From: a virus
Reading direction: 5' to 3' (one strand)
IMG/VR virus record: IMGVR_UViG_3300013102_000800
Coordinates: 1 to 46,519 of that record
Length of the DNA: 46,519 bases
Within the stretch, counting starts at the first letter, position 1. Each line of letters starts with the position of its first letter. Of this stretch, positions 8,133-12,268 are shown in pieces. A model generated the notes under the pieces. The model saw only the letters and a program-made list of their open reading frames with translations. It was not told the DNA's origin and made no database searches. Made by a program: the position numbers and the translations under genes.

Positions 8133-8491
8133 TGCTGCGCTCCGAAGTAGGCGAACACAACAAGCATCACGGCGACGCCGATGGTCCAGCGCAGAAGAAT
8201 TCGTCCGAAGCGGCTGGTGGTGACCCGGACCTCTTCGAAGAAGTCGGCATTCTTCTCGAGCTGCTTTGCGTACTCGCAGGCCATGCCGTGACCGTCACGG
8301 GCACCGCGAGAAAGGCCGGTGGAGCGTTCGATCACGTCGAACTTGTTCTTTCCGATCGGCACGACGTTGAAGCGAGGTGCACGCACTGGCTCTTCGCGAC
8401 CGATCATCTTGTACATCTCCGAGGTGGACAGTGAAACGCGCTCCCGCAACACCTGCAGGACCGCTTGGTTTTGGCGAATGGTCTGGTTCAT
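8129..8491 (-). CDS. Hypothetical C-tail-anchored phage protein
   Basis: 120 residues with a polar N-terminal domain (TSEMYKMIGREEPVRAPRFNVVPIGKNKFDVIERSTG) and one hydrophobic helix near the C-terminus (LLRWTIGVAVMLVVFAYFGAQQ), which predicts a tail-anchored membrane protein. AAGGA six bases before the ATG supports the start. Coupled to the next gene by ATGA. Function unknown. Confidence 0.6.
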   Translation of the reverse strand: MNQTIRQNQAVLQVLRERVSLSTSEMYKMIGREEPVRAPRFNVVPIGKNKFDVIERSTGLSRGARDGHGMACEYAKQLEKNADFFEEVRVTTSRFGRILLRWTIGVAVMLVVFAYFGAQQ

Positions 8492-8592
8492 GACGATTCC
8501 TTATGGTGGGTTGCGGATATTCGTCAGCACTCGGCCGGTCTGCTGGTTGCCGTTGGGCGCAGGGGAGAGTGCTGACGGATAAAGGCAGGCGT

Positions 8593-8619
8593 AAAAAAGC
8601 CCGATCGGAACCGGGCTTT
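8593..8619 (-). terminator. Rho-independent terminator (leftward)
   Basis: Eight-base stem AAAGCCCG/CGGGCTTT (8596-8603 with 8612-8619), eight-base loop, and an A-run at 8593-8598 that gives a U-run on the minus-strand transcript. It closes the structured region to the right. Operon expression beyond it would need antitermination or another promoter. Confidence 0.75.
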
Positions 8620-8673
8620 ACCACTTATGTAACGGGCCTACTGAGCCATGAGGGCCGGGTAGGTAGCTGAAGT

Positions 8674-8784
8674 TCACATGGCTGCCAATCCTCCGTGCGG
8701 GGTTGCAACTGCGGCGACATGCTCTGGCAGTTGGTGGTGCAGATGGCAGGACAGGCGAACCGTTCCTGCTCCCGGCGTTATCAC
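8674..8784 (-). CDS. Candidate 36-residue phage peptide
   Basis: GTG-started frame of 36 codons (begins VITPGAGTVRLSC, contains HLHHQLPEHVAAVA) whose start overlaps the stop of another short frame as GTGA. GGAGCAGG lies inside the frame rather than before it, so initiation would rely on coupling. The opposite strand is also open here (8678-8914), so strand and reality are uncertain. Confidence 0.3.
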   Translation of the reverse strand: MITPGAGTVRLSCHLHHQLPEHVAAVATPHGGLAAM

Positions 8785-8861
8785 CTCGTCGCGCTTTCAG
8801 CTCTACAGCCGCGATCAGGTATCCGGGGACGAATTTGCAATTCCCGCGCTCGGCGGTTCAT
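8781..8861 (-). CDS. Candidate 26-residue arginine-rich peptide
   Basis: ATG-started frame of 26 codons with nine arginines (MNRRARELQIRPRIPDRG...), ending in a GTGA overlap with the next short frame. No clear ribosome-binding site. It lies just downstream, on the minus strand, of the 17-bp inverted repeat at 8899-9062. Small and uncertain; it may be part of a structured transcript instead. Confidence 0.25.
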   Translation of the reverse strand: MNRRARELQIRPRIPDRGCRAESATR

Positions 8862-8898
8862 CTGCGATGCAGGTGGCCGGTATAAGCCGGGGTTTCGT

Positions 8899-9062
8899 CC
8901 GCATCGGGGTGTGATCGGAACACCAGGGCGCTACCCCTACTTGGTTCCCGCCGCGTTTTTAGTATTGGCCGTCTCGCTCATACCGGCTCAGGACATACAC
9001 GGGTCTTTGCGATCCTAGCGCTGCAGCCCGCTTGGGCACGCTCCAATCACACCCCGATGCGG
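8899..9062 (-). ncRNA. Candidate structured RNA closed by 17-bp perfect stem
   Basis: 8899-8915 and 9046-9062 are perfect inverted repeats (CCGCATCGGGGTGTGAT and its complement) enclosing 130 nt. On the minus strand, the direction of the surrounding operon, the interior folds into further hairpins: AGCG-T-GCCC(AAGC)GGGC-TGCAG-CGCT near 9019-9043, GCCG/CGGC around 8967-8986, and GGAAC/GTTCC with an inner GGG/CCC stem at 8917-8949. A long closing stem with three internal arms is the architecture of a functional RNA. No coding frame explains the conservation of the arms. No known RNA family was recognised. Confidence 0.5.
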
Positions 9063-9125
9063 CCTGGCGCTGGGGAGTACCAGGTGCTCGGGCAGTTTTC
9101 GTCAGGCTGACGTGGCGCTGGTTGT

Positions 9126-9431
9126 TCAGATAACCGCAGTGAGGGTCTTCGAGCCGTCAGAGTGTTCGGTGGTGATGCTCATCCCGACGGCATGATGGCC
9201 CCCACGCTGGATGATCACGGCGCACTTGTTGTAGCGATGGTCAAACACTTCGTCGCCATCCGGCAGATGAGAGGTGCAGGTCAGAGTGGTGCAGTCCTCG
9301 CCGTCAGGGCCTTCGCCATCGTGGGCGATGTTGAAGCTGGCGAGCATCGCAATGCCGTGCTCTCTGGCGATGGCGATAATCTGCTGGATGAGTGGGCTGA
9401 TCTGGCTGTCGTAAATCTCTTCTTTGTTCAT
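9126..9431 (-). CDS. Hypothetical phage early protein, first gene after PL
   Basis: 101 residues, with acidic central part (HDGEGPDGEDCTTLTC) and a beta-rich second half. The ATG at 9431 has AGGAG five bases upstream, so the GTG six bases earlier is not used. It is the first clear gene of the leftward transcript, about 300 bases from the promoter, and therefore among the earliest expressed. No family recognised. Confidence 0.65.
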   Translation of the reverse strand: MNKEEIYDSQISPLIQQIIAIAREHGIAMLASFNIAHDGEGPDGEDCTTLTCTSHLPDGDEVFDHRYNKCAVIIQRGGHHAVGMSITTEHSDGSKTLTAVI

Positions 9432-9694
9432 GGTCACTCCTGGCGCTCCTGCTGGTTGTCATCCCGCTGCACCCTGTCGCCAAGGTGCAGAAGTGATGCT
9501 GTCCGTTTCTCTCGCTGCACGTCCGCCGGAGTCCTCTCTCTGCCCGCTGCCGCAACTGGCGTCACATCGGGTGGCTGTGCAACTTTGCGTGCTCTCATTG
9601 GGGAGCCCGGCCAGTTCCAGAGCTGGCATGGAGATCGAAATTTGTGTTTCGCGCTGTGCCCGTTGCCGGGGATCGATCCGCGAAGATTCCTGAC

Positions 9695-9744: not shown

Positions 9745-9773
9745 AATTTAGAAAACTAAACAAAATCCGTCAA
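9745..9773 (-). promoter_or_regulatory. Leftward early promoter PL
   Basis: Minus-strand TTGACG (9768-9773), a 17-base spacer and TAAATT (9745-9750). The start should be near 9738. The -10 box lies within the operator half-site at 9746-9761, so repressor bound there would block RNA polymerase. The long leader to 9431 carries the boxA. Confidence 0.7.
9746..9761. promoter_or_regulatory. Repressor operator OL1
   Basis: ATTTAG-AAAA-CTAAAC, a 6-4-6 inverted repeat matching the consensus GTTTAG-N4-CTAAAC shared with the sites beside the repressor gene (12206-12268). It overlaps the -10 box of PL. Confidence 0.7.
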
Positions 9774-10273: not shown

Positions 10274-11263
10274 TTACTGAGTAGGCATGGCGTTCCGTGC
10301 GACCGTGATGTCATCCACAGCTAGGACGTCAGTGCGGAGAATTTTCTCCTTTTGCTCAGCCGAGTAATGAAAAATACGTATGGGACTAGAGTCGCGCAGC
10401 GAATCGAAAAGTTGATTTATTTTCTGCTGATCGAACTTCGAAAGGTCCACTCTGCCCGGAAATGTATAGTCCTGACCCGGAAGCCGAAGCGTCAACGACA
10501 GATAATCGGGATGACGCTTGATCATCTCGATGTATACATCCTCCCTTCGTTCCTGACGCGTCTTGACTGGAGGCTCCTGAGCTCGGATTTTATCGAGCTC
10601 GTCAGCATTAAAGTGCTCGCCTTGAATATCTATGGATGAGGCATCCGGTGCCCCTATAACGATAGCTCGATAACCCTCAGCGGCTCGGTCCTTTATAGCT
10701 ACCGCTTCTGGCGGGAGCCTGCTTGAGGCTAGGGCGTCAGCTAGTTTGGAAACGAGCGCGGCCTGAGTTTGAGAGGTTTTGTCTGCGCTTGCCAGCTTTG
10801 CCTTTTCCAGATCGGAATGGTTCCAGCCGGAAAAAACCATATAACCAGCAAAACACAGAACTGCAACAATCAGAAGCGCAGTGACTTGTCCGCCGCTCAT
10901 CTTGTTCATGGGAAGGGCCGATATAATTTTGTTGAGAGCATTATCAAGCGGGCCCTGGCCATCAGTGCTTCCTTCGGTGATGTGAAAAATAAGCTCAAGC
11001 TCAGCCTTTTCGGCTGCCGTCAGCTTAGCAAGGGATGATGAGCCGTACCTAATTTCCGTATAGGCTCGCATCAACTGCTCCTGGAACTCGATAAGGCCCA
11101 GCATCAGCTTCGGCGTCAACGTACCCTTATATCGATCGCCTTCCACCTTAACGTCGAAAATGGGCCAGCCCCTAAAGACGGGAAGCCCTGCGCCAAAATC
11201 ACCAATCTGATCTAGCGCGCTTAGGAAAGATTCCGGCCCATCAACAAATACAACGTCCCTCAT
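10274..11263 (-). CDS. Membrane-anchored protein in rex-like position
   Basis: 329 residues. A soluble N-terminal domain (1-120, with FVDGPESFLSALDQIGDFGAGLPVFRGWP) is followed by one transmembrane helix (about 124-147) and a larger C-terminal domain (150-329, including EVVKT-like charged helices and YLSLTLRLPGQDYTFPGRVDL). No family recognised. It lies directly downstream of the repressor on the same strand, ends at a strong terminator, and has AT-richer composition than its neighbours. That is the position of lambda rexAB, so expression from the lysogen and a role in excluding other phages are reasonable guesses. The ATG at 11263 (GGAAG nine bases upstream) is preferred to 11329. Confidence 0.7.
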   Translation of the reverse strand: MRDVVFVDGPESFLSALDQIGDFGAGLPVFRGWPIFDVKVEGDRYKGTLTPKLMLGLIEFQEQLMRAYTEIRYGSSSLAKLTAAEKAELELIFHITEGSTDGQGPLDNALNKIISALPMNKMSGGQVTALLIVAVLCFAGYMVFSGWNHSDLEKAKLASADKTSQTQAALVSKLADALASSRLPPEAVAIKDRAAEGYRAIVIGAPDASSIDIQGEHFNADELDKIRAQEPPVKTRQERREDVYIEMIKRHPDYLSLTLRLPGQDYTFPGRVDLSKFDQQKINQLFDSLRDSSPIRIFHYSAEQKEKILRTDVLAVDDITVARNAMPTQ

Positions 11264-11392
11264 AGCGATCTGCTTCCTGCGAATTTTAAAGGTGCGGGGT
11301 GCTGCTCCCCAGCAGAATAATTTCAGCAATTAACCGGCCGGATTGGACGGCTCTCGATTTGCTAACAACGGGCTACGACCATAAGGCAAGGA

Positions 11393-12205
11393 CTAAACCA
11401 GCTGCGAATTCCAGACCAGCAGTACTCGAGCTTGGATGAAGGTCTCATCAGCCCGGATAGTCTCGGGTGGGTGCCTGGTATTGTCGGAAATCATTTTGAG
11501 CCGGTCATCACCCATCCATTGAAGGCGCTTGATATACAGATGCCCCTCCCAAGAGAACATGTAGATCCCATCCCCTGAGAACTCGCGAACGCTCACGTCG
11601 ACCAAGAGTGGGTCGCGGTGCTTGATCGTGGGCGCCATCGACTGGCCCCAGCCCGTCACCATCTTCAGGTGGAAATGCTCTTTGAACTCAACACCCATTT
11701 CGCGCAGGTGCCGGGGGCTGACGCGCACGTCCTGAAACATTTCGGGGTAATCGTGAGGGATCTGCCCGCCGCCCATCGCGGCCCGGACGTCGTAATGGGC
11801 AATCCACACTTCATCGCCTACAGCACCTGGGCGGTAATAGTCGAGATCGATCACACCACCGCCATCGTCGGCCTCAGCCGCCGCAAGCAAACGTTGACGC
11901 GCAGCTTCCGGTAGAGACTTCCCTTGTTTTGCGAGCATCTGCTTGACCATATCAGCGGCAGATGCGCCGGAATCCAATCGGCTTTCGGACGTGGAAACGC
12001 CTGGCGAGCCGGTGCCTTCCGATAGCCAGTCAGGCGAGCAATCAAGTGCGCGTGCCAGGGAAAGCAAGTTTTTACCCTTTGCACCGTTTGTTCCGCTCAC
12101 CCAAAAGCTGACCGTGGCCTTTGACACGCCGGTCAGCTTGCTGATGTCTGTAGCGCTGAGGTTCAGCTCCCTCATGCGCGCGGTCACGCGATCTTTGAAT
12201 TCCAT
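11393..12205 (-). CDS. CI-type repressor with S24 autoprotease domain
   Basis: 270 residues. Residues 1-65 form an XRE-type helix-turn-helix (LSATDISKLTGVSKATVSFWVSG) that should bind the GTTTAG-N4-CTAAAC operators. The C-terminal LexA/S24 domain has Ser189 in GWGQSM and Lys226 in YIKRLQ as the catalytic dyad, with a likely cleavage region at AAMGGG (142-147). It keeps the prophage silent and should self-cleave when RecA is activated. The ATG at 12205 lacks a ribosome-binding site and lies seven bases after a TAGAAT -10 box, so its mRNA is probably leaderless, as for lambda cI. An operator abuts the start codon, implying autoregulation. Confidence 0.9.
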   Translation of the reverse strand: MEFKDRVTARMRELNLSATDISKLTGVSKATVSFWVSGTNGAKGKNLLSLARALDCSPDWLSEGTGSPGVSTSESRLDSGASAADMVKQMLAKQGKSLPEAARQRLLAAAEADDGGGVIDLDYYRPGAVGDEVWIAHYDVRAAMGGGQIPHDYPEMFQDVRVSPRHLREMGVEFKEHFHLKMVTGWGQSMAPTIKHRDPLLVDVSVREFSGDGIYMFSWEGHLYIKRLQWMGDDRLKMISDNTRHPPETIRADETFIQARVLLVWNSQLV

Positions 12206-12268
12206 ATTTAGGATTCTAAACAATTCATTGTTTAGATAACTTGCCTTGTATTGTTAAGAACTCTAAAC
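12206..12268. promoter_or_regulatory. Rightward operator region, three repressor sites
   Basis: Three 16-base sites of the form GTTTAG-N4-CTAAAC: 12206-12221 (ATTTAG-GATT-CTAAAC), 12230-12245 (GTTTAG-ATAA-CTTGCC, one good half) and 12253-12268 (GTTAAG-AACT-CTAAAC). Centres are 24 and 23 bases apart, about two helical turns each, as in lambda OR. A separate perfect palindrome AAACAAT-TC-ATTGTTT lies between the first two at 12218-12233 and could be the Cro site. Confidence 0.7.
12213..12218 (-). promoter_or_regulatory. PRM -10 element (repressor maintenance promoter)
   Basis: On the minus strand TAGAAT, 5/6 to consensus, seven bases before the repressor ATG, so the transcript would start at or next to the start codon. 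The -35 region is poor, which fits a promoter needing activation by repressor bound next to it. Confidence 0.55.

Follow-up and report, generated by a model that had tools for sequence, protein, structure and literature searches.

The put sites of phage HK022 are transcribed as a pair of RNAs, putL and putR, each about 70 nt long and folded into two stem-loops (PMC9378689). Other phages evade tRNA-degrading defences by supplying tRNAs themselves: the tRNA-Tyr of T5 counters retron-Eco7, and tRNA-Lys counters PrrC (PMC11555353). Mimicry of defence RNAs is also known, with phiTE pseudo-ToxI imitating a toxin-antitoxin RNA (PMC3475682) and the RNA anti-CRISPRs, or Racrs, imitating CRISPR repeats (PMC10651486). 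The ornate phage RNAs GOLLD and ROOL are giant molecules that each form a single conserved family (PMC12286853).

The DNA analysed here (the window) is the whole 46 519-nt stretch of the virus record IMGVR_UViG_3300013102_000800, and the element of interest lies on its minus strand at positions 8899–9062. It is like put in being a structured RNA situated just downstream of an early phage promoter and ahead of terminators, but where put has about 70 nt, two stem-loops and two copies, one behind PL and one behind PR, this element has a stem of 17–20 bp, a hypervariable four-helix core and one copy. No second put-like copy is present in the window, and 13 phage records hold 13 such places; compared as a whole, the element departs from a put-type RNA in copy number and in size with two stem-loops. 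Real tRNAs, including tRNA-Tyr, are found beside or in the slot of some relatives, as would suit the counter-defence tRNAs of phages (PMC11555353), although most cassettes are not tRNAs and the mimics among them lack an anticodon arm and would not decode. Pseudo-ToxI and the Racrs set a precedent for small RNAs with which phages imitate those of the host to disarm a defence, but no ToxI-type or CRISPR-type repeat was seen here by eye, and a constant-stem frame is not described in those papers (PMC3475682; PMC10651486). Direct repeats, as in the short tandem pseudoknot repeats of ToxI, were sought in 8400–9400 and none was found. Like GOLLD and ROOL (PMC12286853) the cassettes are non-coding and structured and include kissing loops; they differ in being modular and only 45–180 nt long, and the window element has no Rfam match. 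The novelty lies in the cassette system and not in the single hairpin of the window, and no prior description of such cassettes was found in the open-access literature, a body of work outside which subscription journals and most preprints lie. We know of no described RNA locus that combines a constant frame with exchangeable structured content.

Setting and fold of the element

The original prediction was of a large structured RNA in the early leftward transcript, bounded by a perfect 17-bp inverted repeat around 130 nt. The repeat is present exactly so (arms 8899–8915 and 9046–9062) and extends to 8899–8919/9042–9062, with 20 of 21 bp paired. No other perfect inverted repeat in the whole window reaches 14 nt with its arms up to 200 nt apart, whereas dinucleotide shuffles give 0.12 per window. 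The minus strand has a minimum free energy of −92.2 and its shuffles a mean of −73.6 (z −4.3; plus strand, z −2.7). The features of the region are listed in Table 1.

Table 1. Features of the early leftward region and of the RNA element, in leftward order
Feature	Position	Strand	Remarks
Repressor, S24/HTH	11393–12223		Leftward order starts here
Gene	10274–11329		Next leftward of repressor
Terminator	10256–10235		Leftward of gene 10274–11329
Promoter-like sites	9806–9745		Consensus matches only
Best promoter-like site, candidate PL	9745–9773	−	TTGACG-17-TAAATT; consensus match only
Upstream gene, same transcript	9126–9437	−	103 aa, PHROG 20111
Conserved leader, 63 nt	9063–9125	−	Short hairpin CGTCAGCCTGACG, AACTGCCCGA, hairpin CACCTGG..CCAGG
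5′ arm of constant closing stem	9042–9062	−	CCGCATCGGGGTGTGATTGGA; 9046–9062 is the perfect 17 bp
Variable core, family K2 of 64	8916–9045	−	Shares homology with the domain in slot 2 of Citrobacter phage phiNP and of further Enterobacterales phages
Helix a, GCCC-AAGC-GGGC hairpin	9026–9037	−	Covaries: GCUC/GAGC, GUAC/GUAC, AUAC/GUAU, UCUC/GAGA
Helix b, AGGA/UCCU	8990–9016	−	GGUCGA/UCGACU and GGCCGA/UCGGCU in Enterobacterales phages
Candidate pseudoknot	CCCG 9000–9003 (loop of helix b) with CGGG 8947–8950	−	CUGG/CCAG in the L010/L017/L018 group
Helix c, GCCG/CGGC	8968–8987	−	Covaries: CAAC/GUUG, CCAC/GUGG, UCAC/GUGA, CGU/ACG
Helix d, AGGG-GUAGCG-CCCU hairpin	8925–8938	−	Covaries: CGGG/CCCG and others
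3′ arm of constant closing stem	8899–8919	−	TCCGATCACACCCCGATGCGG
3′ flanking module	8867–8898	−	GACGAAACCCCGGCUUAUACCGGCCACCUGCAU; short hairpin kept in many relatives
Intrinsic terminator, end of non-coding block	8593–8619	−	10-bp hairpin then T run

The gene order leftward from the repressor suggests that the element belongs to the early leftward operon. Its leader begins directly 3′ of the stop codon of the upstream gene and, since the RNA lies directly behind that gene, a transcript from the candidate promoter at 9773–9745 would be about 1.15 kb long. A further 280 nt of non-coding sequence separate the element from the terminator at 8593–8619, beyond which lie the next early genes. The minus strand does fold there as claimed, so that the terminator end of the RNA of about 470 nt originally proposed is borne out, but with a transcript of about 1.15 kb a discrete 470-nt species is not to be expected unless the RNA is processed. 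The element is also found downstream of cI, and on the same strand as cI, in the Pseudomonas phages MD8, PseuP_224 and psageB2, and at the same place in a Stenotrophomonas phage, E. coli phage 716R3, E. coli prophages and Citrobacter phage phiNP, this position in the early leftward operon having been read in the annotated phages examined. Terminators within 600 nt of the element are found on the sense strand in 34 of 175 relatives, versus one of 175 on the antisense strand. The claim that nothing is coded here agrees with the frame counts: an open sense frame runs through both arms in 114 of 195 related elements, and shuffled sequences give 115. Members of one core family, moreover, differ in length by numbers of nucleotides not divisible by three. 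There is no coding signal, and a coding function was ruled out on these two grounds.

Between the RNA and its terminator, at 8674–8694 on the minus strand, a good Shine–Dalgarno sequence (GGAGG) is followed by the start-stop pair ATG-TGA; its GGAGGATTGGCAGCCATG stretch is common to about 10 relatives, and ATGTGA recurs in contig L005. Minigenes of this start-stop type are able to sequester tRNAs or to function in attenuation. A second inverted repeat (8518–8581, minus strand; 15 nt, 93 %) lies between the terminator and the next gene, with a similar repeat, GTCAGCACCCT..AGGGTGCTGAC, at that place in L005 and L006, and could be an operator or a 5′-UTR structure. We also note that ATCGG of the 5′ arm has a possible alternative partner in the GCCCGA of the leader (9052–9096, minus strand), in competition with the 3′ arm, a pairing that is conserved in the relatives read and might constitute a co-transcriptional switch.

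Among 117 non-redundant elements the outer stem CATCGG/CCGATG is nearly invariant, a conservation of sequence that is partly built into the search seeds. Pairing is kept at stem positions 7–15, most of them with several Watson–Crick types, although this covariation too is partly built in, the elements having been selected as inverted repeats, which favours pairing. Stem position 6 (5′ CATCGGA/3′ CCCGATG) is G-C in 52 elements, A-C in 41, A-U in 11 and U-A in 10 (n=117). Outside this position G-U exceeds A-C by 23 to 7, as expected if the RNA of the minus strand matters, but over all positions the balance is reversed, and because of the A-C excess at position 6 this wobble test of strand gives a mixed result. 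The A-C mismatch seen in these 41 of 117 elements would be accounted for by a protonated A-C pair or by a recognition site.

The core of the window element belongs to a family that we call K2, and this core, without the stem, is common to Citrobacter phage phiNP at 76 % (blastn). Versions of K2 were gathered from viral contigs and records, 12 from Pseudomonas and 10 from Enterobacterales, and 15 of them were aligned. In this alignment 97.5 % of the helix cells of a six-helix structure pair, and 49 cells are doubly compensated, compared with 13.8 in column shuffles, which leave the relatedness of the sequences in place, and with at most six when the partners are slid. The inner hairpins foreseen from the sequence of the window are thus represented by helices a, c and d, which show compensatory changes; the pseudoknot variant was read directly from the sequences and, being misaligned by MAFFT, was left out of the counts. 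Covariation in homologues was one ground on which the original prediction was to stand or fall, and on this ground it stands because the K2 homologues do covary; strand, lack of coding, position downstream of cI and terminator end likewise agree with the proposal of an early leftward structured RNA. We hold with great confidence that the minus strand of 8899–9062 is a non-coding, covarying structured RNA and that it represents one allele of a cassette whose RNA content is exchangeable.

A constant frame with exchanged cores

When the 5′ arm alone was used as a pattern, at least 120 viral contigs were matched, and in most of them the same two arms enclose other content. The arm pattern is present in 42 of 298 Pseudomonas species genomes, for the most part with both arms paired, versus none for a reversed control pattern, and the hosts in the scan of genome contigs were mostly Pseudomonas. 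A search that was not anchored on the stem sequence gave a consistent picture, an inverted repeat standing behind the leader motif in 217 of its 260 occurrences.

From the 195 elements extracted we obtained 173 distinct cores, 45–178 nt long (45–180 nt as given above), which fall into 64 unrelated sequence families; 35 of these were seen once, and the Chao1 estimate is of about 124 core families. The leader is far better conserved than the cores. Where the upstream flanks are at least 90 % identical, the cores behind them are unrelated in 108 of 123 sampled pairs, and the identity of unrelated cores behind like flanks is 0.50, against 0.46 when shuffled. At least two kinds of leader hairpin are found with 21 of the core families. 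These comparisons of flanks and cores indicate that whole cassettes are exchanged between phages, as opposed to slow divergence in place. Structure and exchange are thus both established for the element. By inspection the cores stand in one orientation relative to their flanks; an invertible DNA cassette had been considered and was set aside on this constancy of orientation.

tRNA-like cores and the locus of Enterobacterales phages

Escherichia, Salmonella, Klebsiella and Citrobacter have phages and prophages with an analogous non-coding block, which separates the promoter on the cI side from the early genes; these include yfdP/yfdQ in several cases. This block has its own constant stem, CACAACGGTAAGAGCA / TGCTCTTACCGTTGTG, again with exchanged cores, and a second slot that holds a K2 domain, a kissing domain, a tRNA mimic or a true tRNA-Arg, the last of these in Salmonella phage SPN9TCW. 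True tRNA genes (Asn-GTT, Tyr-GTA, Thr-TGT and Ser-TGA) adjoin stem-framed cassettes in enterobacterial phages, and a 91-kb E. coli plasmid that has a terminase gene carries a K2 element at a distance of about 0.6 kb behind its tRNA-Arg and tRNA-Ile. The contigs with cassettes adjoining tRNA genes are L341, L371, L374, L387, L403, L416, L418, L432 and L441, several of the cassettes abutting tRNA-Asn directly.

Two further observations concern this block. In Enterobacterales and Stenotrophomonas it opens with a conserved leader, CGGCRTATGGCACATGYGYCG .. GCCGGAATGTGCAAG (L336:3835–3980, L339, L337, L335, L462 and L464), whose GCACAT and ATGTGC can pair at a distance and which makes a better candidate for a put-like antiterminator than do the cassettes. 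The same E. coli prophages also have C4 antisense and isrK RNAs, on the other early side (L336:1540–1728; L339:607–795, minus strand).

A tRNA T-loop motif was recognized in six of the 64 family representatives, versus 0.5 expected. With the Rfam tRNA model (RF00005, cut-off 29 bits), cassettes of L264, L346, L146 and L350 score 42.0, 40, 31.2 and 28.7 bits, and the true tRNA in L335 scores 71 bits. In the alignments of the L264 and L350 cassettes to the model the D-arm and T-arm are intact, the anticodon arm is replaced or reduced and there are long foreign inserts: L264 has 37 nt instead of the anticodon arm, and L350 has a shortened arm followed by an insert of more than 50 nt. No decoding-competent anticodon loop is seen in either alignment, and to judge from these sequences the mimics keep the tRNA elbow formed by the D-arm and T-arm and should be unable to decode. 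The T-arm of two core families matches tRNA-Glu in a comparison with the E. coli rrn operon. The same comparison disposed of mimicry of rRNA, a candidate prompted by the resemblance of GCAAAGACCCGU to 23S, in that only chance matches of 10–12 nt were found.

A second large group of cores has a 5′ hairpin and a 3′ hairpin with complementary loops and a free middle. The loops GCUGAU/AUCAGC recur in the compensated forms ACUGAU/AUCAGU, GCGAU/AUCGC and GUCGA/UCGAC, and also as the unrelated GCCAA/UUGGC; 18 of 38 loop pairs are complementary over at least 5 nt, compared with a mean of 6.05 (maximum 13) with shuffled partners. By analogy, a closing stem with two kissing end arms and a free middle may be regarded as a surrogate tRNA elbow.

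The K2 core and many other families have no tRNA likeness. The window core gave no match to RF00005 at the gathering score and none at E-values up to 5, and its hairpin loops are not complementary to each other in the kissing-loop test. For the window element as a whole no Rfam 15 family was found at the gathering score, and none that was convincing at E-values up to 5. Apart from the tRNA-like ones, no core tested matched an Rfam family; in the window and sixteen relatives Rfam returned only true tRNAs, one tRNA mimic and, elsewhere, C4 and isrK. ARAGORN at standard settings reported no tRNA among the Pseudomonas elements, and at relaxed settings it returned noise.

Possible roles of the cassettes

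The supply of tRNAs against tRNA-degrading defences, the precedents for RNA mimicry and the pattern of constant frame and variable content together lead us to favour counter-defence, and trans-acting RNAs that serve as decoys of the tRNA system, or of defences acting on the tRNA pool, are a tentative possibility. Soon after infection or induction the RNA would be synthesized; its long stem, naturally a substrate for enzymes of the RNase III type, would release or protect it; and the RNA would then act in trans on a host factor that binds or cleaves RNA, most likely to counter systems directed at the tRNA pool or to serve as a decoy for them. Under diversifying selection by the various defences of hosts, a constant frame with hypervariable content could then arise. 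Against this reading, a role in cis is equally compatible with an early location between promoter and terminator, and the K2 core of the window, like many other families, is without tRNA likeness.

The main rival is a cis-acting element for antitermination or for modification of RNA polymerase, in the manner of HK022 put, which we consider rather unlikely. The leader and stem would bind the elongation complex and carry it past the terminator into the early genes, with the core a tolerated passenger. Such a role would suit the location behind an early promoter and before an intrinsic terminator in phages of Pseudomonas, Enterobacterales and Stenotrophomonas, and equally the conservation of the leader far above that of the cores, but the element occurs as one copy in the window and at 13 places in 13 phage records where put is a pair, and a passenger core gives no reason for 64 unrelated cores, for tRNA mimics or for a real tRNA in the slot. 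The three functions originally suggested were unspecific: control of antitermination is possible, although no positive evidence for it was found and a single copy per genome is unlike the pairs of put or nut, and a sponge for sRNAs and an influence on lysis timing found no support here.

Processing devices, base-pairing regulators and pure DNA elements are all less likely than the counter-defence and cis roles. Cuts by RNase P, RNase Z or RNase III could punctuate the early polycistronic transcript or affect its stability, any well-folded insert being then sufficient, and the long perfect stem, the true tRNAs and tRNA mimics in the slot and the location directly behind a stop codon are what one would look for; this is nevertheless improbable, as simple punctuation does not require the strong internal covariation of the K2-type cores and the diversity is far above the needs of processing. 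Similarly improbable are regulatory or sponge RNAs that base-pair with host or phage RNAs, each core family having its own targeting specificity: prophage-encoded sRNAs are common and loops that vary within a constant frame would lend themselves to different targets, yet the helices conserve structure more than sequence. Exchangeable contents between inverted repeats do recall a recombination site, a MITE-like inverted repeat or a hairpin that functions only as DNA, but we regard this as very improbable given the fixed orientation to the flanks (by inspection), the covariation of the inner core helices, the recurrence of the same core in a different stem in Enterobacterales phages and a wobble test that is mixed (G-U to A-C 23:7 outside position 6, A-C dominant at position 6).

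An exchangeable early cassette whose RNA acts in trans as a decoy or in counter-defence may therefore be put forward as the best explanation of the whole, albeit one we hold with some reserve. The locus might then be described, again provisionally, as a hypervariable RNA locus of Pseudomonas temperate phages, and analogously of those of Enterobacterales, in which a constant leader and stem display exchangeable folds, several of them mimics of the tRNA elbow that lack an anticodon, as an RNA counterpart of the protein anti-defence islands.

A constant frame with exchanged RNA content is an arms-race signature of a kind usually seen for proteins. Should the cassettes act in trans, they would amount to a large store of phage RNA effectors absent from annotation; the estimate from this sample alone is of about 120 core families, every one of which should lead to a host target. 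The tRNA mimics that lack an anticodon would be a direct handle on host or defence factors that recognize the tRNA elbow. Should the role instead be in cis, the cassettes would constitute a new class of early-operon control RNA.
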